A DNA stretch of 64,000 nucleotides, taken from contig NZ_DS022298.1 of NCBI RefSeq assembly GCF_000153805.1, forward strand, positions 70,616 to 134,615, in the 5' to 3' direction. This stretch comes from Synechococcus sp. BL107 (GTDB lineage Bacteria > Cyanobacteriota > Cyanobacteriia > PCC-6307 > Cyanobiaceae). The notes under the pieces were generated by a model. That model saw only the letters and a list, made by a program, of their open reading frames with translations. It searched no databases and was not told the DNA's origin. Both the position numbers and the translations under genes were made by a program. Positions 23,754 through 41,186 of this stretch are shown here, one piece after another (within the stretch, counting starts at the first letter, position 1; the number at the start of each line of letters is the position of its first letter).

Positions 23754-23795
23754 CCGTCCGCGTTGGAGAATTTAGGAGTGGTGATCGAGCCAGGC

Positions 23796-26700
23796 ATGGT
23801 TGTGTCGACGACGGAACTCCCCCAAGACAACAGCCGTCGCGATGAGGTTCTTAAGCGACTCGATCGAGCCATCGAGAGGGTGGTCCTTGAACGACAGGAT
23901 CCCATTAGTGGCTTGTTGCCCGCGAGTACGGCACACACCATCCATGGCAACTACGGCGATGCCTGGGTTCGCGACTGTGTGTACTCCATCCAGTGCGTCT
24001 GGGGGCTCACCCTCGCCCATCGTCGGCGTGATGGGAGCAGCAGCCCCAGAGCCTGGGAATTGGAGCAACACGTCGTCGCACTCATGCGCGGTCTGTTGCG
24101 CTCCATGCTGCGCCAGGCGAACAAGGTGGAACGCTTCAAAACCAGTCTGAATCCGCTGGATGCTCTTCATGCGAAATACGACGGATGCTCGGGGGACCCC
24201 GTCGTCGACGACGACGCTTGGGGTCACCTGCAGCTCGATGCCACTTCGTTATTTCTTCTCCAGCTTGGTCAGCTGACACGGGGTGGATGTGCCGTGATCC
24301 GGAGTCGGGACGAAGCCGACTTCATTCAGAACTTGATCCACTACATCGCTCGGGCATACCGCATCCCGGATTACGGCATTTGGGAGCGGGGTGATAAAGC
24401 GAACCATGGTTGTCCCGAGCGCAATGCCAGCTCGATCGGCATGGCCAAAGCCGCTCTAGAAGCCCTCGACGGGCTCGATCTTTATGGACCCCATGGGAAT
24501 GGGTCTTGCCGCGTTTTGATTCCACAAGGGGCGATCGTGCGGCTACGGCGGGCCTTGGTGGGCTTGCTACCCAGGGAATCCGCCAGCAAAGAAGCCGATA
24601 GCGCCTGCTTATCGGTGGTGGGCTATCCGGCATGGGCCGTGGAGGACTCCGACTTGGTGGAGCGGACCCTGCGGCGGATCCGACGGGAACTTGGGGGCCA
24701 TTACGGCTACAAACGCTTTCTCAGAGACGGACATCAAACCGTCGTGGAAGATGCGAGCCGACTGCACTACGAACCTGAAGAGCTGTCCAAGTTCGAAGGG
24801 ATCGAATCGGAATGGCCCCTATTCCTCGCCTTCGAACTGGTCACAGCTTGCTGTGAACAGCGGTGGGATGAAGCTCAAAGCTGGCACACCAAATTGAAAA
24901 GGCTGGCCGTTCAGACCAACGGTGACGCGCTGTATCCCGAGCTTTATTTGGTGGAGAGGGATGCGATCGAGAACGAGAGACGCAACCCTGGCAGCCAACG
25001 CCGTATTGCCAACACCAACCTTCCGTTGATCTGGACCCAGAGCTTGGCCTGGCTCGGAGAAATGCTGCTGGAACGACTGATCACCCCAGCCGATATCGAT
25101 CCCTGCAACCGACGCACACCCGCAGCGCTCGGTGCGGACTCAGTGCTGGTGGCCTTTGCACCTCAAACAGACGATGTACGGGAGGCGCTGATCGCCGCTG
25201 GCTGCCCCGTCGATGCAGAGGAAACAATCAGCGTCCACTCCTCCTCCTCCCTCAAAAACCATCTGAAATCAGCCGGCAACAACACACGCCTCGGCCTCAG
25301 CGGCCGCCCAGGACATCGAGTCGAAACCGAAGAAACCGCTCGGTTTTATCGACACAACGGACAACAACTGGTGTTTACACCCACCGTTTTAGAGGACAGC
25401 AACAGCTACCTCGCGGACGACACGCAGCAACTGCTCGACAGCGTTGTCGATGAACTGCACTTACTCCAACGTCACTGGAGAGGAAGCGGACTGCCTCTGC
25501 TTGTGATTCCCGTTAACAGCGCACTCTTTCAACAAAATCCTGAGATTTACATCCAACTCAGTCGACAGCTCGAGAGCGGCTCCCTCCAGACCATTTCAGT
25601 GCAATGCGATTACCTCAGTCGACTAGCAGCACAGGGGCAATGGGCCGATCTGCCAAACAATCAAACGCCCCTACGCGACATCAACGCCACTCCAGCCATC
25701 GTGCTCCGCGATGCCACGGATCTTCGTGATCTCACCGCTGCCGAAGAGCAAGAACTCGATGACATCTCGATTGAACAACTCACGCAGCGGTTATGGAGCA
25801 GTTCCTTGTTGCACGAACAAGCGGAGGTTTTGGAACTTCTCCAGCGCCGTTTGGGCTCACAAAAAGTTCAGCTCAGTCGTGGAAAGCGCCCGATCGAGCT
25901 TCGACAGCTGTTAGCGGAGGTGTATCAACACGGCTTGCGCTGCCAAGACTGGAATGTGGTGCGTCGTTGTGCGGGCGCTATGGGAATGGTGCACCCCCAG
26001 CTCGAAGATGCCCTAACCGATTTGCTTGTCCGCCAAAAACAGGTGGTGGTGGGCCGCAATTACACCGGTGAGTCCCGTTTAAACCAACCGCAAGACAGCA
26101 CCGCGATCGCTGAGCGGATCGAACGCACCAGCGGGATTGATGCCCGCGAGCGGATGCTGGAACAAGAGCTGTTGCTCGCCCTAGACAGCATGGTCCGACG
26201 CGAGCCATCGCTGCTCGACGGGAGCCTCACCCTCCAGCTCGGGCAACTCCTGTTGCTGCTCACATCCGAACTGTCAGGGGAACAAGGCTTGAGTCAGGAC
26301 GAGGCTTTTGAAGTCCTCTGCTGCGAACCTCCCCACAGGATTCGCAGCCGTCTTCGCACCGTACTTACCGATGTTGACCATGCCAAAGCCGCTCTGAAAC
26401 GCAGTGAGCAGCTGCATGTGAGCGGGCGTGTGCAGTGGACGGTGCCGGATCCCCTGGAACGCCGTCCGGGCAACGGTGATTGGCTGCAACACCGAATTCG
26501 CCTTGGCTCACTCCAACAAGTGCCGCGTGATTTCTATGCGGGGATTTGGTCCTTGCTGCAGCACTGCCGCGGCCTCGTAATCGGCGACAAATTGGAACGC
26601 CGCAACCGACTGAATAGCCGTCTTGTCCTTGAAAAGACCCCAGGGGAACGTAATTTTGCGACTCTGGTCGATCACCTCTTAAGCCGAATCGAGGCTCCGG

Positions 26701-26978
26701 AATACCGCCAATTGTGTTGTGAGTGTTTGCTGTCACTCATGGCTTTCGTTGAGACCAATGCCGATGTGCGCTTCGACGATGATCTGGCACTCGATGTGGT
26801 GATTGGCCATGCAGTGCGGGTGGGATGGCAACACACCCACCCATCGATGCATGTGGATGACTACGCGAGGCACAAAGCCCAAGCTTGGGGGCAGTTCTAC
26901 CTGGCCTCACCCGGGGATTGTCGGCGCTGGCAGGTGATTGCCCTCAAAGAGCTCGCTGAGCAAAATGGCCTAGTCTGA
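23796..26978 (+). CDS. GH15 / phosphorylase-kinase-alpha-like large protein
   Basis: A protein of 1060 residues or slightly more. The N-terminal half has the glycoside hydrolase 15 (alpha/alpha barrel) pattern shared with phosphorylase b kinase alpha/beta subunits: GNYGDAWVRDCVYS, YDGCSGDPVVDDDAWGHLQLDATS, DYGIWERGDKANHGCPERNASSIGMAK. The C-terminal half has no domain I recognise. The first part could hydrolyse or bind glucans; the eukaryotic kinase subunits use it as a regulatory platform. ATG 23796 is chosen; GTG 23781 or TTG 23763 are also in frame and an AGGAG lies at 23774. Glycogen metabolism is the likely setting, by inference only. Confidence 0.8.
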   Translation: MVVSTTELPQDNSRRDEVLKRLDRAIERVVLERQDPISGLLPASTAHTIHGNYGDAWVRDCVYSIQCVWGLTLAHRRRDGSSSPRAWELEQHVVALMRGLLRSMLRQANKVERFKTSLNPLDALHAKYDGCSGDPVVDDDAWGHLQLDATSLFLLQLGQLTRGGCAVIRSRDEADFIQNLIHYIARAYRIPDYGIWERGDKANHGCPERNASSIGMAKAALEALDGLDLYGPHGNGSCRVLIPQGAIVRLRRALVGLLPRESASKEADSACLSVVGYPAWAVEDSDLVERTLRRIRRELGGHYGYKRFLRDGHQTVVEDASRLHYEPEELSKFEGIESEWPLFLAFELVTACCEQRWDEAQSWHTKLKRLAVQTNGDALYPELYLVERDAIENERRNPGSQRRIANTNLPLIWTQSLAWLGEMLLERLITPADIDPCNRRTPAALGADSVLVAFAPQTDDVREALIAAGCPVDAEETISVHSSSSLKNHLKSAGNNTRLGLSGRPGHRVETEETARFYRHNGQQLVFTPTVLEDSNSYLADDTQQLLDSVVDELHLLQRHWRGSGLPLLVIPVNSALFQQNPEIYIQLSRQLESGSLQTISVQCDYLSRLAAQGQWADLPNNQTPLRDINATPAIVLRDATDLRDLTAAEEQELDDISIEQLTQRLWSSSLLHEQAEVLELLQRRLGSQKVQLSRGKRPIELRQLLAEVYQHGLRCQDWNVVRRCAGAMGMVHPQLEDALTDLLVRQKQVVVGRNYTGESRLNQPQDSTAIAERIERTSGIDARERMLEQELLLALDSMVRREPSLLDGSLTLQLGQLLLLLTSELSGEQGLSQDEAFEVLCCEPPHRIRSRLRTVLTDVDHAKAALKRSEQLHVSGRVQWTVPDPLERRPGNGDWLQHRIRLGSLQQVPRDFYAGIWSLLQHCRGLVIGDKLERRNRLNSRLVLEKTPGERNFATLVDHLLSRIEAPEYRQLCCECLLSLMAFVETNADVRFDDDLALDVVIGHAVRVGWQHTHPSMHVDDYARHKAQAWGQFYLASPGDCRRWQVIALKELAEQNGLV

Positions 26979-32934: not shown

Positions 32935-34398
32935 ATGGCATCGGCTCCATTACCGCTCGGCCCAGCTCCAATTCAATTCGGCACGGATGGTTGGCGCGGC
33001 GTGCTGGGGGTCGACATCACGGTGGAGCGTCTGCTTCCCGTGGCGGCGGCCGCCGCCCAAGAACTCGCGCACCGCGCCCCCGAAGGCCTCGACAGCCGCA
33101 CCGTGGTGATCGGCTATGACCGCCGGTTTCTTGCCCCTGAACTGGCGGAAGCCATCGCTGCCGCTGTCCGTGGATGTGAGTTAGAGCCGCTGTTAACGGA
33201 CACACCCGTTCCAACCCCAGCGTGCAGCTGGGCCGTCGTCGAGCGTCGGGCTCTTGGAGCCCTTGTGATCACTGCGAGCCATAACCCTCCGGAATGGCTC
33301 GGGCTGAAAATCAAAGGCCCCTTCGGAGGCTCCGTGGAGGGGGATTTCACCGCGGCAGTGGAACGCCGGCTTGCTGCCGGCGGAATCACGATCCCGATCC
33401 AGGGCGAGGTTGCGCGGTTCCCTGGGCGAGACGAGCACCTCAATGGGCTTCGCACAAAACTGGATCTAGCCCCAATCATGGCGGGGCTTAAAGCGATGAA
33501 GCTCAAGGTGATCGTTGATCCCATGCATGGCTCCGCGGCGGGCTGCATCTCGGATTTATTCGGACCGGCTGGCGCGGGATGGATTGAAGAAATCCGCAGT
33601 GAACGCAACCCTCTCTTTGGTGGAAATCCCCCGGAACCTTTAGCGCCTTATCTGCAGGAGTTAATTGCAGCGGTCCGCGCCTCCACCGCGGCTGGCACTC
33701 CTGCGGTTGGGCTCGTGTTCGATGGCGATGGAGATCGCATCGCCGCCGTTGACGAAACGGGACGGTTTTGCAGCACCCAGCTGTTAATGCCCTTACTCAT
33801 CGATCATCTGGCCCGTGCCCGTGCGCTACCCGGTTCGATTGTGAAAACCGTCAGCGGATCGGACCTCATGCGATTGGTGGCCGAGGCGCAAGGTCGAGAC
33901 GTCCTTGAATTAGCTGTGGGTTTCAAATACATCGCGGCGGAAATGCTGACCGGAGATGTCTTGATCGGGGGCGAAGAATCTGGGGGCGTGGGCTTTGGCA
34001 TGCACCTTCCCGAGCGGGATGCGCTCTATGCCGCTGTTCTGGTTTTGGAAGCTTTGGTGGAAGGCGGACAACCGCTTGGTGCGCGACTCACCGGTCTTCA
34101 AGATCAACATGGTGGAGCGAGTCATTACGACCGCCTGGATTTAAGACTCGCCAACATGGAAGCCCGCAAACGCCTCGAGCAGATCCTTGAGAAAGCCACT
34201 CCAACGGCAGTGGCTGGTGAAGAGGTGCAAGAGGTGATTCGGACCGATGGCATCAAACTTCGGATGGGACCAAGCCACTGGCTGATGCTGCGTTTCTCCG
34301 GGACAGAGCCCTTACTCCGTTTGTATTGCGAAGGACCCGATGCAGACCGCGTGCACGCCGTACTGACTTGGGCAGAACACTTTGCTGAGGCGGCATGA
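32935..34398 (+). CDS. Phosphoglucomutase/phosphomannomutase
   Basis: A 487-residue alpha-D-phosphohexomutase. The substrate-entry FGTDGWRG is at 15-22, the active-site phosphoserine loop ITASHNPP has Ser 115, the metal loop is VFDGDGDR near 262-269, and the phosphate-binding RFSGTEP lies near the C-terminus (about 459-465). It interconverts hexose 1- and 6-phosphates; glucose, mannose or glucosamine specificity is not settled. ATG 32935 is chosen because homology begins just after it; the frame is open 69 codons further upstream across the divergent RecB-like gene. Its stop overlaps rdgB by four bases. Confidence 0.92.
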   Translation: MASAPLPLGPAPIQFGTDGWRGVLGVDITVERLLPVAAAAAQELAHRAPEGLDSRTVVIGYDRRFLAPELAEAIAAAVRGCELEPLLTDTPVPTPACSWAVVERRALGALVITASHNPPEWLGLKIKGPFGGSVEGDFTAAVERRLAAGGITIPIQGEVARFPGRDEHLNGLRTKLDLAPIMAGLKAMKLKVIVDPMHGSAAGCISDLFGPAGAGWIEEIRSERNPLFGGNPPEPLAPYLQELIAAVRASTAAGTPAVGLVFDGDGDRIAAVDETGRFCSTQLLMPLLIDHLARARALPGSIVKTVSGSDLMRLVAEAQGRDVLELAVGFKYIAAEMLTGDVLIGGEESGGVGFGMHLPERDALYAAVLVLEALVEGGQPLGARLTGLQDQHGGASHYDRLDLRLANMEARKRLEQILEKATPTAVAGEEVQEVIRTDGIKLRMGPSHWLMLRFSGTEPLLRLYCEGPDADRVHAVLTWAEHFAEAA

Positions 34399-34985
34399 CG
34401 AAGAACCGGGTGCTCGTGATCGCTAGTGGCAATCAAGGCAAAATTCTTGAATTTCAAGGGTTGCTGAACGGACTACCCCTGCTGGTAGAGCCGCAGCCGG
34501 AGGGTCTTGATGTGGAAGAAACGGGCACCACATTCGCTGCAAATGCCCGAATCAAAGCCCTTGCCGTGGCGCAAGCCACGGGACATTGGGCCCTCGCCGA
34601 CGACTCGGGCCTGAGCGTTTCAGCCCTGAATGGCGCGCCAGGGGTGCACTCGGCGCGTTATGCCCCAACAGACCCTGAGCGCATCAAGAAATTGCTCGAA
34701 GCATTACGCCCCTGCCATGAGCGCTCCGCCTATTTCAGTGCAGCGCTGTGTATTGCCGCTCCGGATGGTGAGGTGTTGGTCGAAGTGGAGGGTCGCTGTG
34801 AAGGCCAAATCACCAAGGCCCCCCGCGGCGACCAAGGCTTTGGGTACGACCCAATTTTCGAGGTCAACAACACGGGCCGCACATTTGCAGAAATGGCCTT
34901 GTCCGAAAAGAAAAGCTATGGCCATCGAGGCCGGGCTTTCACCCTCCTGGAACCACTGCTGAAAAACCTCATTTCCACGGATTAA
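34395..34985 (+). CDS. rdgB: Non-canonical purine NTP pyrophosphatase (RdgB/HAM1)
   Basis: A 196-residue ITPase-family enzyme that removes dITP and XTP from the nucleotide pool. Motifs: VIASGNQGKILEF (7-19), ADDSGLSVSALNGAPGVHSARYA (near 72-94) and GDQGFGYDPIF with catalytic-type Asp near 144-154. Length is typical. It begins inside the stop of the phosphohexomutase gene (ATGA overlap), and the SABATH methyltransferase operon follows after 72 bases. Confidence 0.95.
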   Translation: MTKNRVLVIASGNQGKILEFQGLLNGLPLLVEPQPEGLDVEETGTTFAANARIKALAVAQATGHWALADDSGLSVSALNGAPGVHSARYAPTDPERIKKLLEALRPCHERSAYFSAALCIAAPDGEVLVEVEGRCEGQITKAPRGDQGFGYDPIFEVNNTGRTFAEMALSEKKSYGHRGRAFTLLEPLLKNLISTD

Positions 34986-35057
34986 CAACGAGCGCACATC
35001 ACATCAGGACGCCAAGGGTGAAACCCTGTACGGTGCGATCTGACGCTGACGAGGTCG

Positions 35058-36095
35058 ATGGCCATTGCCATGACCACGGGTTACAGCGCACAGACCGAAG
35101 GCGCACTGCTTTGCATCAATGCCGCCTCGGACTGGGCCCTGACTTGTGTAGACCAACTTTCTGCCCAGACCAGCTACGTGCTGATTGATTACGGCGCTGC
35201 CGATGGAGGCACTGCAGTTGGTCTTTGGAGCCAGGTACTGGATCGGTTGCACGCCAATCAACCCAAGGCCCATCTCACGCTGATCGGCAACGACCTGCCA
35301 AGCAACGACAACGTCGCTCTGGCTGAAAACTTGGCCCAACAAATTCCACGCACACCAAAACCAACGGTTTTAGTGAGCGCACGCAGCTTTTACGAACCCT
35401 CCGTCGCACCGGACACGGTGAGCTTTGGCTTCTCAGCTACGGCAATGCACTGGCTGAGCGAATCTCCGGGACCGCTCGAGACTCACACGCATGTGCTGGC
35501 ATCAGGGGATTCAGAAGCCCTTGCACGATTCACAAACCAAGCACTCAAGGATTGGGCCTACATCCTGGAATTGCGCAGCTTGGAACTCAAAGTTGGTGGC
35601 CGACTCCTCACGGTGAACCTCTCCCGGGATGAGCAAGGTCGCTACCTGGGCCATAACGGCGGTGAAACCCGCAATGTGCACGACCAGCTCCATCAGATCT
35701 GGCGTGGCCTTGCAGATGAGGGAGTCATCACTGAAGAGATTTATAAAAAAGGCACTGTCCTGAATTTCTACAAATCCCCGGAAGAATTCATGACACCGCT
35801 GAAGGACACCAATTCAGCGGCTTATCGCAATGGCCTGCGTTTGGTGGACGAACGCACGGTGTATGTGAAGTGCCCCTACCGCCGTCGCTGGAATGAAGAC
35901 GGCGACACGGCAACCTTCGCGGCTGGCCTGATGGCCACCATCCGGAGTTGGAGCCGGCACAGCTTTGCCTCCGTCGCAGGGGACACAATCGCGGATCAGG
36001 TGTATGACCGTCTTGAACAGCGCATTGCCGCTGCCCCAGATGAGTGGAGCCTGGATTACGTGGAGCATCACCAGATGATGGAGAAAGTTGCTTAA
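35058..36095 (+). CDS. SABATH-family S-adenosylmethionine methyltransferase
   Basis: A 345-residue protein with clear plant-type SABATH signatures: SAM site VLIDYGAADGG (41-51), NDLPSND (78-84), ARSFYEPS (108-115) and a substrate-pocket MHWLS (130-134). Plant members methylate carboxyl groups (salicylate, jasmonate) or ring nitrogens (caffeine, theobromine). Substrate here is unknown; as first gene of a four-gene set with an amino acid dehydrogenase, an amine-oxidising flavoenzyme and a betaine transporter, N-methylation of a small amino or pyridine carboxylate is my inference. ATG 35058 has GAGG close upstream. Its TAA shares one base with the next ATG. Confidence 0.87.
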   Translation: MAIAMTTGYSAQTEGALLCINAASDWALTCVDQLSAQTSYVLIDYGAADGGTAVGLWSQVLDRLHANQPKAHLTLIGNDLPSNDNVALAENLAQQIPRTPKPTVLVSARSFYEPSVAPDTVSFGFSATAMHWLSESPGPLETHTHVLASGDSEALARFTNQALKDWAYILELRSLELKVGGRLLTVNLSRDEQGRYLGHNGGETRNVHDQLHQIWRGLADEGVITEEIYKKGTVLNFYKSPEEFMTPLKDTNSAAYRNGLRLVDERTVYVKCPYRRRWNEDGDTATFAAGLMATIRSWSRHSFASVAGDTIADQVYDRLEQRIAAAPDEWSLDYVEHHQMMEKVA

Positions 36096-37147
36096 TGGCC
36101 AATGCAACCAAGCCAGAGCCGACGGTGTCGGTTCTGGCTCAACACGTCTCAGCGCATCTCTCAGTCTTTGTCGTCGCAGAAAACACCGATTCGAAACGCC
36201 CAGCCAATGGTGGGTTAAGGCTTCTGAATTACCCAAGCGATGAAGCCTGCATTGCGGACGGTCAACGGTTAGCGGGTTTGATGACCCACAAGCACGACCT
36301 GTATGGCACCGGGTTTGCCGGCGGAAAAATTGTGGCGCGTGCCCAGGAACCCGCAGCGGTTAAGGACGAACTAATCAGCGTGACCGCAGGGCTGCTGGAG
36401 TCACTCGATGGCTCGATGATCACAGGATGTGACCTGAATACAAGTTTGGAAGACATGGAGCGACTGATGTCGCTCACACCCCATGTTCTTGCTGCCGTTG
36501 GAAGCCCTGTGGATGCCAGTGCTGCCACAGCCCACGGCACGCTCGGAGCCGTCGAAGCTGTGCTCAGCAGCGACCTGAAAGATGCACCCCCCGGAAGGGC
36601 CCTTGTCCACGGATGTGGGGCCGTAGGGGGCACCGTCGCAAAAACCCTTGTGGATCAAGGCTGGACCGTCTTCACCGTGGATCTCAACAGGGAGCGTGCT
36701 GGCTTGGCCGGTGCCACTCCACTGCCTCCCAGCTGCCCCTGGTGGGAAGTGAAAGTGGATCTGATGCTTCCTTGCTCAATCTCCGGTTTGATCAACTCAG
36801 AGATTGCAGAAGGAATGCGCACCAAGGCCGTGGTACCAGCGGCCAATGCTCCGTTTCAGAACCCTCAACTTGCCGACGAGCTCCGTCAGCGTGGGATCCC
36901 CGTCTTACCCGATCCCCTCGTAAATGCTGGAGCGGTGATTGCGGATTCAATTGAACGTTTTTCACCGCAAGCTTGGAAAGGTGCCGGTGCTGAAGACGTT
37001 TACGCCTTCGTTCGTGGCGAAGTGCGCCGAAGGGCCACGGAATACTTGTCGCAACGCGAACAAGGGCTATCAGTAGGGGATGCGCTCACCGAAGTCGCAG
37101 CAGACACCACCGATCCAATCGGCCTGAGCTTTAAAGACACCCCATGA
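36095..37147 (+). CDS. Glu/Leu/Phe/Val-type amino acid dehydrogenase
   Basis: A 350-residue oxidative-deamination enzyme, sized like leucine/phenylalanine dehydrogenase. Conserved residues are in place: THK (Lys 66), GGK (Lys 78, catalytic), Asp 113 in ITGCDLNTSLEDM, Rossmann GCGAVGG (173-179) with Asp 196 ending strand 2 (NAD preference likely), PAANAPF, and LPDPLVNAGAV. It should convert an L-amino acid to its 2-oxo acid plus ammonia. Specificity is open; lysine would give a product that cyclises to piperideine-2-carboxylate. Start and stop overlap both neighbours (TAATG before, ATGA after), so translation is coupled. Confidence 0.87.
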   Translation: MANATKPEPTVSVLAQHVSAHLSVFVVAENTDSKRPANGGLRLLNYPSDEACIADGQRLAGLMTHKHDLYGTGFAGGKIVARAQEPAAVKDELISVTAGLLESLDGSMITGCDLNTSLEDMERLMSLTPHVLAAVGSPVDASAATAHGTLGAVEAVLSSDLKDAPPGRALVHGCGAVGGTVAKTLVDQGWTVFTVDLNRERAGLAGATPLPPSCPWWEVKVDLMLPCSISGLINSEIAEGMRTKAVVPAANAPFQNPQLADELRQRGIPVLPDPLVNAGAVIADSIERFSPQAWKGAGAEDVYAFVRGEVRRRATEYLSQREQGLSVGDALTEVAADTTDPIGLSFKDTP

Positions 37148-38337
37148 GCAACAACCTTTCATCCCTCCCCAATCAAGCCTCCGTGGTGATCATTGGCGGA
37201 GGAATGGCCGGCTTAAGTTGCGCCGCTTCGCTGGCCCGGCAGGGCGTTTCAGATGTTGTGCTGTTAGAGGCCAAAACTCTGGCCCACGCCCAAGCCAGCA
37301 GCTTTGGCGAAACCCGGATGTTCCGGGAAATGTATTCCGACCCAGTGCTCTGCAAGCTGGCCCAAGAAGCGAATCGACTCTGGCGCGAAGAAGAAGTTCT
37401 CTCCGGGGAAACTCTGCGCGAAACCCACGGCTTGCTCTTTTACGGGGAAAGCTGGGATGAGGAAACCATCGAGGGATCAATTCCGGGCGCCCGGCGCGTC
37501 ATGGACGACCAAGGCATTCCCTATGAAGCGTTGAATGCTGGTGAGATTTCAGCGCGGTTTCCTTTGAAGCCAAAAGCAGACTTCACTGGACTGTTTGAAC
37601 CCACTGCCGGTGCCGTTCGCAGTGACAAAGTCATTGCCCATTGGAGAAAAACGGCTGAGCAAGCCGGCCACCTGTTGGTTGAACACGCTGCGGTGCGCAG
37701 CTTGGATGACGACGGCGGTGGTGTTCTCCTGGAATCCGGTCAGCACATTGCGGCCGACCAAGTTGTTGTGGCTTGCGGTGTTTGGAGCCAGTTGCTGTTA
37801 GCACCTTTAGGGCTGGCGCCCAAACTTGAGGTGTGGCCGATGCTTTGGGCCCATTACACCGTGGATCCAGCCTTGGCCGATCGGTATCCCCAATGGTTCT
37901 GCTTCCAAAAGGAACGGGGTGATGACGGTGGCCTGTACTACGGCTTCCCTGTCCTCAGCACCACGAGCGATGGTCGTCCACGCATCAAAGCTGGTATCGA
38001 TTGGGCCCCCCAAGAGTTGCGGGTGAGAGAACCCAATGCCATGTGCAGCGAACCACCGGCACGGCTAGTCGAATTGCTCGACCATTTTCTGTTCAACAAT
38101 GTGAGTGGCATTCAGGAACGCGTCGAAACTGTCATCAGCCCGTATTCGATGACCAGCGATGTGAACTTCGTTCTTGATCGCCTCAGCCCCAAGTTGAGTT
38201 TGTTCTGTGGCGGATCTGGGCAATCGTTCAAATTTGCACCCTTAATTGGAGACTCCCTCGCGCGATTAGCCAGAGGAGAATCACCCGCCGTCGATATTTC
38301 CTGCTGGAACCACAAACGGGCTGCCGTCTGCGCCTAA
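37144..38337 (+). CDS. FAD amine oxidase of the monomeric sarcosine oxidase family
   Basis: A 397-residue DAO-type flavoprotein: FAD-binding IIGGGMAG (16-23) with Glu 42, SSFGETRMFR (52-61, matching the MSOX Arg pair), GLYYGFP, RIKAGID (Lys 282, Asp 286) and FKFAPLIG (362-369). At the position of the covalent-flavin Cys of sarcosine oxidase it has Ser 332 (SPYSMTSD), so FAD is probably not bound through that Cys. The family includes sarcosine, pipecolate and N-methyltryptophan oxidases and NikD, which aromatises piperideine-2-carboxylate to picolinate. Substrate is inferred from context. It overlaps the dehydrogenase gene by four bases. Confidence 0.87.
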   Translation: MSNNLSSLPNQASVVIIGGGMAGLSCAASLARQGVSDVVLLEAKTLAHAQASSFGETRMFREMYSDPVLCKLAQEANRLWREEEVLSGETLRETHGLLFYGESWDEETIEGSIPGARRVMDDQGIPYEALNAGEISARFPLKPKADFTGLFEPTAGAVRSDKVIAHWRKTAEQAGHLLVEHAAVRSLDDDGGGVLLESGQHIAADQVVVACGVWSQLLLAPLGLAPKLEVWPMLWAHYTVDPALADRYPQWFCFQKERGDDGGLYYGFPVLSTTSDGRPRIKAGIDWAPQELRVREPNAMCSEPPARLVELLDHFLFNNVSGIQERVETVISPYSMTSDVNFVLDRLSPKLSLFCGGSGQSFKFAPLIGDSLARLARGESPAVDISCWNHKRAAVCA

Positions 38338-38382
38338 GTCTGCGCCGAAATCCGCACTGAAGAATCCATCGTTTTTGAACCT

Positions 38383-39933
38383 GTGTCTGAAATTCCAACA
38401 ACGTCTCGCTCCTGGTGGAAACAACCCCCGCTCTGGGTGGGTGCTGGACCACTTCTGATCTTCCTGGTGGTCTCCGCTATCGATTTAGCTCTGGCAAAGC
38501 ACTTCACCGAGACAGGTAAGGCGATTGTTAGCAATGCGCTTGGAGGAATCTGGCAATGGATGGTGTTGCTGCTGTTTCTCATCGCAATCGCGATTGCAAT
38601 CAGTCCGATTGGCCGCCTCCGCCTCGGCGGAGAGGATGCGAAACCAAGCCTGAAATTCTTTGACTGGTGTGCAGTGTTGATCTGCACGCTTTTGGCAGGA
38701 GGTGGGGTGTTTTGGTCGGCAGCTGAGCCGCTCTTTCACTTCCAAACGCCGTCACCAACCTTCGAGGGGGTGACGGGAGGAACTGCCGCGGCGGTCGACC
38801 CAGCACTAGCCGTGAGCTTCCTGCGCTGGGGCTTTTTGGCTTGGGCCTTAGTGGCAACCACCACGACGATTACCTATTCAATTTTGGAACGACGCGGAGA
38901 GCCACTCCGGCCTCGCACCCTGCTGGTCAATATCCTCCCGAGACAACTCGTTGATGGTCCTCTAGGTGACTTGGCAGATGGCCTATCGGTGGTGGCTGCC
39001 ATTGCAGGAACTGTTGGCCCCTTGGGCTTCCTGTCCCTACAGCTGAGCAATGCCGCAGGTCAGCTCCCCTGGTTAAGCGACAGCGCTGGATTGCAATCCG
39101 TCGTGGTGCTCATGCTCACCGCTGTTTTCGCGACATCAACAGTGAGCGGAATACAAAAGGGCATCAAATGGCTCTCGGAGTTAAACGTTTGGCTCACCAT
39201 CGGGATGGCGGCCGCACTACTTCTGCTTGGTCCTGGCCTCTGGTTGATTCAGCATTTTTTCAGCGGCTTCCTCACCTATTTGATCCATCTGCCTGAGATG
39301 GCCCTGGCTCAGAACGATTCCGCAAACAATTGGGTGAATGGCTGGACCGTGTTCTATTGGGGCTGGTTTCTAGGTTATGCGCCCCTCATGGGGCTGTTTA
39401 CCGCGGGAGTGAGCCGTGGGCGCAGCCTTAGGGAACTGGTGTTGGCCGTTGCAATCCTCTGCCCGATCGTGACGAACCTTTGGTTCACATTGCTCGGCGG
39501 AACGGGCATGCAACTTGAACTTGCTGGGGCAGGAATTACGGATGCCCTTGCCCAGAACGGTGCGGCAGCTGCTTTGCTCGCCATCCTCAGCGCTTTACCA
39601 CTCGCAGCTCTGCTGATCCCAGTGGGCCTCATCCTGGTGGTGCTTTTTATGTGCACCAGTGCCGATTCGATGAGCTACGCCGCCGCCATGGTGGTGAGTG
39701 GGAAAAACGAGCCACCTCCAGCCTTGCGCTTGTTCTGGGCCCTGATGATCGGCAGCCTCACCCTGGTATTACTGCGCATCGGCACCGGACTCGGTGACAG
39801 CACCTCGATTGACGCACTGCAAGCCTTCATTGTGATTACAGCGGTTCCTGTGACCCCCTTAGTGCTGTTCACACTTTGGAGCGCTCCGCGCCTCGCCTGG
39901 AAAGAATCTTTGAGACAAAACAAGTTGAATTAA
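38383..39933 (+). CDS. BCCT-family betaine/choline/carnitine-type transporter
   Basis: A 516-residue membrane protein with about twelve helices. BCCT marks are GVFWSAAEPLFHF (near 108-120) and the aromatic helix-8 motif WTVFYWGWFLGYAPLMG (near 317-333) followed by GVSRGRSLREL. The aromatic cage binds quaternary ammonium groups in BetP, CaiT and relatives, so the cargo is probably a betaine or related zwitterion; ion coupling and direction are not shown. It lies 45 bases after the flavoenzyme on the same strand and closes the set. The C-terminal tail is short and basic. Confidence 0.9.
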   Translation: MSEIPTTSRSWWKQPPLWVGAGPLLIFLVVSAIDLALAKHFTETGKAIVSNALGGIWQWMVLLLFLIAIAIAISPIGRLRLGGEDAKPSLKFFDWCAVLICTLLAGGGVFWSAAEPLFHFQTPSPTFEGVTGGTAAAVDPALAVSFLRWGFLAWALVATTTTITYSILERRGEPLRPRTLLVNILPRQLVDGPLGDLADGLSVVAAIAGTVGPLGFLSLQLSNAAGQLPWLSDSAGLQSVVVLMLTAVFATSTVSGIQKGIKWLSELNVWLTIGMAAALLLLGPGLWLIQHFFSGFLTYLIHLPEMALAQNDSANNWVNGWTVFYWGWFLGYAPLMGLFTAGVSRGRSLRELVLAVAILCPIVTNLWFTLLGGTGMQLELAGAGITDALAQNGAAAALLAILSALPLAALLIPVGLILVVLFMCTSADSMSYAAAMVVSGKNEPPPALRLFWALMIGSLTLVLLRIGTGLGDSTSIDALQAFIVITAVPVTPLVLFTLWSAPRLAWKESLRQNKLN

Positions 39934-40124
39934 ACTGATCCTTAACTCTTAAAAAGCCGACCAAATTAAATACATCCAAAACCACCAACTATAAACATAT
40001 AGCAAGTCAGTATTCAGTAAAATATTTTCAATAAATCACGCCGGAACACGGATTCATCCTGGCTTAGTCCATATAATCTTGCATGACTAACACCATGTGA
40101 GCATTTAGCTCGTGTTTCAGCTTT
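39934..40124. other. AT-rich 191-base intergenic region
   Basis: Convergent gap between the BCCT gene and the sulfotransferase-like gene, clearly richer in A and T than the surroundings (for instance AATATTTTCAATAAATCACG). No classic hairpin-plus-T terminator, no repeat and no open frame worth calling. Its composition continues into the next gene, suggesting one acquired segment. Confidence 0.5.
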
Positions 40125-41186
40125 TCAAGCAACCATGGCGTCATAGTCCTTAAAAAATCGCTTGCGCAAAGTCCAAGGGAAGTGGAGCTCTCGTAAAACG
40201 CGAACCATCAAACGACGCATTTCCCTCTTCTCCAATTCAGACTCCGGCCCTGGATAGATAAGCGGTGAGGCCGGCTTCGCTGGAAACAACGCATTCCAAG
40301 AAACACCCCAATGCTGGCGCGCAAACGCATCATTTGATGATGCATAAAAACCTGATACACGATCCAAAAGTGGCTGATCAAACCCATCAAACTTGTCCTG
40401 ATCCCAGCCTCGCTCAATTGCAAGATCACGAATCACTTTTCCTTTGCGGTTCAACACATCAGGATCAAAACCAAGAGATTCCATGAGCTGATAACAAACC
40501 CGAGACATCCAAATTCCTTTCGCACCTGGCTGAATATTCTTCTTCGATGGCTCTCCCTTCAGCCATCCATTTCCAGCTGGCTCTTGCAAACCCAAAGCTG
40601 ATGTCAACGCCAGAAAGGGATCTTTAGTTGCGACTTCGCGAGACAACGGTAGAAACATTTTTATAGTTTCTGGAGATTCCATTAAAACACTAAACTTAGA
40701 GGGATAACTAATATCCCAAGACGTAGAATTATGCATAATATATTGACAGTAATCTGGAAAATCTTGCGTTGAACGAAACCGCCTAATACGGTGACAATAT
40801 ACTGAATTTAACCAGGACTGCTGATCTCTAACGAAATAACTAATTCCAAGCTTAAATCCATAGGACGATGCCATTTCTTGCAGAATAGTCAGAACGCCCC
40901 GTTTCAGAATCCGCGTATCCAGGGATGAACTACTAATCAAAATACGCTTAAAATCACTCGACAATCCTGAAAGAGCCTGCTCCAAAGGCTGATAATTTTT
41001 CTCGGCAATAGAATTAGCGAGGAGATTATTATCTCCATCCATTAATACTCTTTGTTTCGCCAAGGTGGTGCGATTTTTACGCAACCGTTCAGTTACATAA
41101 CTGCTGGCTGCCTTATGAGGTCCAGCATGGATCCACAACATCCGCTCATCGCTATTGATCTGCGGAAGAGCAAATGGCGTGGCCAC
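40125..41186 (-). CDS. Sulfotransferase-like protein
   Basis: A 353-residue protein with an N-terminal 5'-phosphosulfate-type loop LWIHAGPHKAASSYV (18-31), resembling the I-H-x-G-x-H-K-T-G-T-T pattern of bacterial PAPS sulfotransferases, and a 3'-phosphate-type motif GISYFVRDQQSWLNSVY (near 113-130). It may sulfate a surface glycan or small molecule; two Ala replace the usual Thr/Gly in the loop, so activity is not certain. Codon and base composition are AT-richer than the neighbours, pointing to transfer. No glycosyltransferase lies beside it. Confidence 0.6.
   Translation of the reverse strand: MATPFALPQINSDERMLWIHAGPHKAASSYVTERLRKNRTTLAKQRVLMDGDNNLLANSIAEKNYQPLEQALSGLSSDFKRILISSSSLDTRILKRGVLTILQEMASSYGFKLGISYFVRDQQSWLNSVYCHRIRRFRSTQDFPDYCQYIMHNSTSWDISYPSKFSVLMESPETIKMFLPLSREVATKDPFLALTSALGLQEPAGNGWLKGEPSKKNIQPGAKGIWMSRVCYQLMESLGFDPDVLNRKGKVIRDLAIERGWDQDKFDGFDQPLLDRVSGFYASSNDAFARQHWGVSWNALFPAKPASPLIYPGPESELEKREMRRLMVRVLRELHFPWTLRKRFFKDYDAMVA

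Follow-up and report, generated by a model that had tools for sequence, protein, structure and literature searches.

A block of four genes in a 64,000-nucleotide stretch of the Synechococcus sp. BL107 genome probably encodes the conversion of lysine into homarine. The stretch, hereafter called the window, covers positions 70,616 to 134,615 of NZ_DS022298.1 (RefSeq assembly GCF_000153805.1), the single 2.285-Mb contig of this genome. A route from lysine via piperideine-2-carboxylate and picolinate to homarine, combined with retrieval of the product by a BCCT transporter, is in our judgement the best explanation of the block, because one product known from these organisms accounts for all four genes.

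Organization of the gene block

The four open reading frames (ORFs) are located on the plus strand and tightly packed:

35058-36095, +, SABATH methyltransferase (MT), 345 aa; proposed picolinate N-methyltransferase
36095-37147, +, ELFV-family amino-acid dehydrogenase (DH); proposed L-lysine 2-dehydrogenase
37144-38337, +, NikD/MSOX-family FAD oxidase (OX), 397 aa; proposed piperideine-2-carboxylate oxidase yielding picolinate
38383-39933, +, BCCT-family transporter (BCCT), 516 aa; proposed betaine/homarine uptake or retrieval

MT and DH overlap by one base (TAATG) and DH and OX by four bases (ATGA), and a gap of 45 bases separates OX from BCCT. DH starts with the ATG at 36095; the mechanically called ORF opens earlier, at GTG 36044. 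An earlier note on this DNA, made from the sequence alone, had described the same arrangement, and its coordinates and junctions proved correct. Its family assignments (SABATH, amino acid dehydrogenase, MSOX-family oxidase and BCCT) hold as well, as Pfam places all four window proteins above the gathering scores: MT as Methyltransf_7 (1.4e-21; 77.4 bits, cut-off 29.8), DH with both the ELFV_dehydrog (3.2e-15) and the ELFV_dehydrog_N domain (9.4e-7), OX as DAO (1.1e-43) and the transporter as BCCT (4.2e-127; 425 bits, cut-off 27). None of the four proteins reached an NCBIfam cut-off, and MT did not match any NCBIfam model.

A predicted pathway from lysine to homarine

In the pathway that we propose, and whose every substrate and product we infer, the ELFV dehydrogenase would take the alpha-amino group off L-lysine, and the resulting 2-keto-6-aminohexanoate would cyclise spontaneously to piperideine-2-carboxylate. 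A NikD-like flavin oxidase would oxidise this compound by four electrons with O2 and so aromatise it to picolinate, a reaction that should draw the unfavourable first step forward. Using S-adenosylmethionine (SAM), the SABATH enzyme would methylate the ring nitrogen of picolinate to give the betaine homarine (N-methylpicolinate). Uptake or retrieval by the BCCT protein would allow the cell to retain homarine, presumably as an osmolyte.

That lysine might be the starting compound is indicated by the dehydrogenase. DH matches the leucine dehydrogenase (LeuDH) structure 7vid (2.2e-31). We aligned 13 members of the DH family with five references (leucine, phenylalanine and tryptophan dehydrogenases and one further ELFV dehydrogenase). 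Residues K68, K80 and D115 of LeuDH, which we take to be catalytic, are retained in 13/13 DHs. The substrate side-chain pocket, to which LeuDH positions 40 and 294 presumably belong as the equivalents of Lys89 and Ser380 of glutamate dehydrogenase, is different. Position 40 is Asn in 13/13 DHs and Leu (LeuDH), Ala or Met across the five references, and position 294 is Asp in 13/13 DHs and Val in the four references reaching that site. The hydrophobic side-chain pocket of leucine and tryptophan dehydrogenases is hence replaced by Asn and Asp. In the 367-aa ORF of the window, these residues are N55 and D301. This pattern extends to the 42 named loci of our survey, which comprise 31 of Synechococcus type, 10 from Prochlorococcus (including MIT 9401, MIT 9201 and HNLC1) and one from a metagenome-assembled genome (MAG) of the Myxococcales; strain RCC307 is likewise represented. 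The pocket Asp is present in all 41 loci covering the position and the pocket Asn in all 39 readable copies, 36 of them recognized by pattern and three (L040, L045 and L047) on inspection; this count leaves out L043, in which the codon is masked, and L058 and L071, in which the position is not covered. With an invariant carboxylate in the pocket, a substrate with a cationic side chain is to be expected, and we predict from the alignment that the DH pocket has been re-charged to accept a positively charged substrate, lysine for example. Of such substrates, it is lysine that leads to a pyridine.

By family profile and predicted fold, the oxidase resembles NikD more than any other solved member of its family. 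When the OX family profile was compared with solved structures, NikD ranked first (2oln, 1.4e-46) with 162 bits, followed by MSOX with 134 and MTOX with 116 bits. Consistent with this, the predicted OX model (pLDDT 83.9) has NikD (2olo) as its top fold match (VIA-align Z 45.0, root mean square deviation 2.2 over 374 residues, 30% identity), ahead of the best MSOX (Z 42.6) and of MTOX (Z 38.7), and the connection to NikD drawn from the sequence alone is borne out on both counts. A short insert bearing Glu101 of NikD, presumably an active-site residue, is common to the OX family and NikD and missing from MSOX and the Thermomicrobium sarcosine oxidase; the equivalent residue is Glu in 13/13 aligned OXs and in 42/42 named loci. 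Equivalents of Arg52 and Lys348 (MSOX numbering), which we take to be the substrate carboxylate-binding pair, are retained in 13/13 OXs. The accessible passages of one report describe a carboxylate-binding Arg/Lys pair as common to MTOX, MSOX and NikD (PMC6222107). From the alignments and the predicted model we conclude that OX would act like NikD, as a distinct variant of it.

The methyltransferase profile matched a mycobacterial fatty acid O-methyltransferase (FAMT; 5f2k, 8.5e-26), SAMT (1m6e, 2.1e-16) and the tea N-methyltransferase CkTcS (6lyh, 1.3e-10). Its AlphaFold model (pLDDT 80.2) has the predicted SABATH fold that had been expected, with Z-scores of 32.0 to 27.8 for 13 SABATH entries and of 17.1 for the next fold class. 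The mycobacterial enzyme comes first (Z 32.0) and is followed by N-methyltransferases from tea, mate and coffee (29.8 to 29.2; CkTcS 29.8), placing MT near both O- and N-methyltransferases. Two genomes carry a disrupted MT. In G234 (locus L134, 7201-8231), four bases that are present in the MT of the window are deleted, and the other three genes are approx. 98% identical to those of the window. In G239 (locus L138, 3596-4629), MT is frameshifted and DH, OX and BCCT match along their length. If they are not sequencing errors, these two genes are natural knock-outs.

The fourth gene encodes a transporter with a conserved motif of its own. F[YF]WGWFLxY (W-G-W-F-L-x-Y) is present in 30/30 BCCT copies reaching the motif in the named loci, the myxobacterial copy included. 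Three solved BCCT relatives have W-A-W-W-I-x-W or -Y at the same place, the -Y variant being that of DddT. W-x-W-W-x-x-W is, as we assume, the binding-helix signature of BetP-type glycine betaine transporters of the BCCT family, and W-x-W-W was found in 0/30 copies reaching the motif. The NCBIfam model for glycine betaine transport gave 293 bits at a cut-off of 650. Such a conserved difference in the binding helix would be compatible with a substrate different from glycine betaine.

Distribution and unity of the block

MT and OX occur together. Of 400 Cyanobiaceae genomes, 70 had an OX match (E <= 1e-30), and the same 70 had an MT match (E <= 1e-10). MT is present in 28 of the 34 genomes of the window's genus, OX in 11 of 200 genomes of a Prochlorococcus genus and in 4/66 of the good-quality ones among them. 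Across the phylum the MT profile matched 20/386 genomes, every one from the Cyanobiaceae. In the phylum to which the myxobacterial locus belongs, it matched 2/235 genomes, namely the source genome of that locus and a weak match (L143, 2e-22). The contig scan behind the named loci used patterns of close relatives and may miss distant relatives elsewhere.

The order of the genes is constant. In 40 of the 42 named loci, MT, DH and OX stand contiguous in this order on the same strand; L058 and L071, the remaining two, are truncated where their contigs end. BCCT follows OX in all 30 Synechococcus-type loci extending beyond OX (the contig of L034 ends inside BCCT) and also in the Myxococcales locus L069. 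The co-occurrence of MT and OX and the constant order of MT, DH and OX indicate that the gene set is not due to chance. Around the 10 Prochlorococcus loci, no BCCT match (E <= 1e-8) was present in the flanking sequence retrieved. The Myxococcales locus holds the full four-gene block (L069, 3825-8618) with 46-54% identity, 46% for MT over its whole length. This level of identity, a G+C content of 71.5% within a locus of 72% G+C and a protein kinase gene approx. 3 kb away make stray Synechococcus DNA unlikely.

Genomes lacking the block are informative as well. In all four examined (G216, G261, G071 and G009), none of the four genes was detected in the 12-18 kb fetched (E <= 1e-3). In G216, G009 and G071, the genes usually located downstream follow directly after RdgB or within approx. 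1.3 kb, and the block between them is absent. In G092, the block lies approx. 0.3 Mb from the PMM gene, after which it is usually located. Judged by its absence after RdgB and its different position in G092, the four-gene block seems to come and go as a whole unit, and RdgB stands outside it.

Carriage by mobile elements was considered and rejected. With the patterns used, no MT or OX relative was found in viral contigs and no MT in phages. Plasmids yielded two distant MTs, eight ELFV dehydrogenases with less than 32% identity (27.8-31.6% to the window DH) and no OX at 1e-35. An MT on a plasmid of Rhizobium sp. CB3171, 33% identical to that of the window, was dropped as belonging to a different system; the adjoining flavoprotein is glycine-oxidase-like and has no real similarity to OX. 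On this plasmid, amid transposases, a weakly matching B12-binding/radical-SAM protein, an unannotated hydrophobic protein, the SABATH methyltransferase and the glycine-oxidase-like flavoprotein stand in a row (L141, 7226-12339), which is perhaps another small-molecule cluster.

Homarine in Synechococcus strains

Homarine has been measured in relevant strains. Heal et al. report it from both of the Synechococcus strains that they cultured, from four diatoms out of six and from a single Emiliania huxleyi strain (PMC8269262). Corrected values reach 18 mM in one Synechococcus strain and are approx. 0.2 mM in WH7803 (PMC10134881); by elimination, the 18 mM strain is WH8102. WH7803 carries the intact block (locus L036). 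For WH8102, a passage of a 2010 paper lists a predicted operon from SYNW0229 (BetT) to SYNW0233 and guesses that SYNW0230-0233 are missing transporter subunits (PMC2874817). Judged by the length of the operon and the gene order in relatives, SYNW0229-SYNW0233 fits BCCT-OX-DH-MT-RdgB. Homarine had been named as the candidate product in the earlier note, and the DH pocket, the NikD-like OX, the SABATH MT, the BCCT motif, the block in WH7803 and the predicted WH8102 operon all support it inferentially.

Points against the pathway and alternative explanations

Several observations weigh against the proposed route. Some of them concern the oxidase. The single OX sequence of the window, as opposed to the family profile, ties the sarcosine oxidase 7exs with NikD. 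The Cys that links the flavin in MSOX and NikD is missing from OX and replaced by Ser in 40 and by Asn in one of the 41 loci covering the position; the flavin of OX is probably non-covalent. Trp355 of NikD is replaced by Gln in 13/13 OXs. For Asp276 of NikD, again presumably an active-site residue, different alignments give different counterparts: with phmmer it is matched to the invariant Asp286 of OX, which lies within a K-x-G-x-D stretch, the profile alignment is shifted and MAFFT places a gap. In the transporter, the Tyr of the motif also occurs in the dimethylsulphoniopropionate (DMSP) transporter DddT, which leaves the Trp-to-Phe change as the special feature.

The earlier note had suggested comparing the presence of the block with measured homarine content. 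WH7803 supports the relation in having both. The amount does not follow, as WH7803 with its intact block contains approx. 100-fold less homarine than WH8102, for which we infer the block from locus-tag order and not from its sequence. Furthermore, diatoms and E. huxleyi make homarine, so that the block need not be the sole route to it.

Among the alternatives, the one that survives best, unlikely as it is, assumes that the same three enzymes make another N-methylated heterocycle or betaine, for instance from ornithine via pyrroline-2-carboxylate or by another order of steps, and that BCCT carries this product. The DH pocket specifies no more than a cationic side chain and would, by its sequence, also admit ornithine or arginine, the substrates of SABATH enzymes are diverse and OX is just approx. 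30% identical to NikD. From the chemistry, however, the methylated oxidation product of pyrroline-2-carboxylate would not be a quaternary betaine, which leaves BCCT unexplained, and what has actually been measured in Synechococcus is homarine.

We consider it very unlikely that MT methylates a carboxyl group, of picolinate or some other acid, and yields an ester instead of an N-methyl betaine. Carboxyl O-methylation is the activity of most SABATH enzymes that have been characterised, the nearest solved relative of MT is the mycobacterial fatty acid O-methyltransferase, and a SABATH sequence as such would not separate N- from O-methylation. On the other hand, the plant SABATH N-methyltransferases are close behind in the structural comparison, and the trigonelline synthase of coffee, a SABATH enzyme, N-methylates nicotinate, an isomer of picolinate. 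A methyl ester would also leave the BCCT gene of the block unexplained.

Least likely of all is a catabolic block that imports an N-methylated amino acid through BCCT, demethylates it by OX and deaminates it by DH, even though BCCT proteins are mostly importers and the best NCBIfam models are those of N-methyl-L-tryptophan oxidase for OX (181 bits, cut-off 257) and, far under its cut-off, of the tryptophan dehydrogenase ScyB for DH (97 vs 600 bits). It is disfavoured by a SAM methyltransferase as the first gene in 70/70 OX-bearing genomes (frameshifted in two), by pocket changes in DH that appear unsuited to tryptophan, by the nine Prochlorococcus loci uncut before MT, which hold MT-DH-OX without a BCCT match, as synthesis would predict, and by bacterial homarine catabolism, which the accessible part of one paper assigns to a different enzyme, Mgd (PMC13390433).

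The lysine-to-homarine route thus remains the reading that we prefer.

Leader and neighbouring genes

Three further features adjoin the block:

34395-34985, +, RdgB/HAM1 pyrophosphatase, upstream neighbour; left edge of the block, judged to be outside the pathway
35026-35057, +, leader directly 5' of the MT start, CTGTACGGTG ... CGCTGACGAGGTC; possibly promoter and ribosome-binding region
40125-41186, -, 353-aa protein without Pfam match, downstream neighbour; right edge of the block

The sequence CGCTGACG occurs at most 46 bases upstream of the MT start in 23 of the 26 Synechococcus-type loci checked, and TGTAC[GC]GTG is present in the MT leader of 17/26. Neither turned up in the other five loci checked, four from Prochlorococcus and one from the Myxococcales. 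A scan of positions 34300-40300 for sigma-70-type promoters gave no match. The 353-aa protein adjoins the block in some named loci and not in others. Elsewhere in the window (23763-26978, +), a 1071-aa protein combines a glycosyl hydrolase 15 and a phosphorylase b kinase C-terminal domain.

Significance

Excerpts of two papers describe the biosynthetic pathway of homarine as uncharacterised as of 2021 (PMC8269262, PMC8269247), and a passage from 2022 states that the diatom pathway is unknown (PMC9723723). The statement of the earlier note that no genes had been assigned to homarine biosynthesis agrees with our literature search, which turned up none; subscription papers and preprints were outside its scope, and prior publication is possible. 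For this reason we lean only slightly towards the view that the block represents the first homarine biosynthesis genes in any organism, made up of an ELFV lysine 2-dehydrogenase, a NikD-like oxidase with non-covalent flavin, a bacterial SABATH picolinate N-methyltransferase and a BCCT transporter tuned to a flat aromatic betaine.

Along a North Pacific transect, homarine amounted to up to 0.25% of particulate carbon after correction (PMC10134881). If the pathway is true, the four genes provide a marker for recognizing homarine production in metagenomes and transcriptomes. The patchy distribution in picocyanobacteria would then have an explanation, which yields predictions for named strains, and one source would be known of a compound that marine bacteria use as carbon and nitrogen currency. 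Moreover, the ELFV family would gain a dehydrogenase specific to lysine and the SABATH family a bacterial N-methyltransferase.

Comparison with known systems

The proposed steps resemble the NikC/NikD route of nikkomycin biosynthesis. In the accessible description of that route, lysine loses its alpha-amino group and cyclises to piperideine-2-carboxylate, which is oxidised by an MSOX-family flavoprotein (PMC11446937). With NikC/NikD, and with CrmC/CrmD of caerulomycin, the block would share lysine deamination, piperideine-2-carboxylate as intermediate and an oxidase nearest to NikD. In contrast, an ELFV dehydrogenase takes the place of the aminotransferase NikC, OX lacks the flavin-linking Cys of NikD, and the proposed product would be N-methylated and remain in the cell as a solute instead of serving as an antibiotic building block. 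New would thus be the type of the first enzyme, the flavin attachment and the end product.

Compared with the leucine, phenylalanine and tryptophan dehydrogenases of the ELFV family, DH has the same two domains and catalytic Lys, Lys and Asp. It differs from LeuDH in that Leu40 and Val294 of the pocket are exchanged for Asn and Asp in every DH aligned. MT shares the fold and the proposed methylation of a ring nitrogen with the plant SABATH N-methyltransferases, i.e. the caffeine and theacrine enzymes and the trigonelline synthase of coffee, whereas it is bacterial and its sequence is closer to that of the mycobacterial FAMT. A similar organization is found in a related organism. In WH8102, the available text of PMC2874817 places the GsmT/SdmT genes for glycine betaine synthesis together with ProVWX at SYNW1913-1917. 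There, too, methyltransferase-based betaine synthesis genes stand beside a betaine importer, while the enzymes, the transporter class and the proposed product are different.

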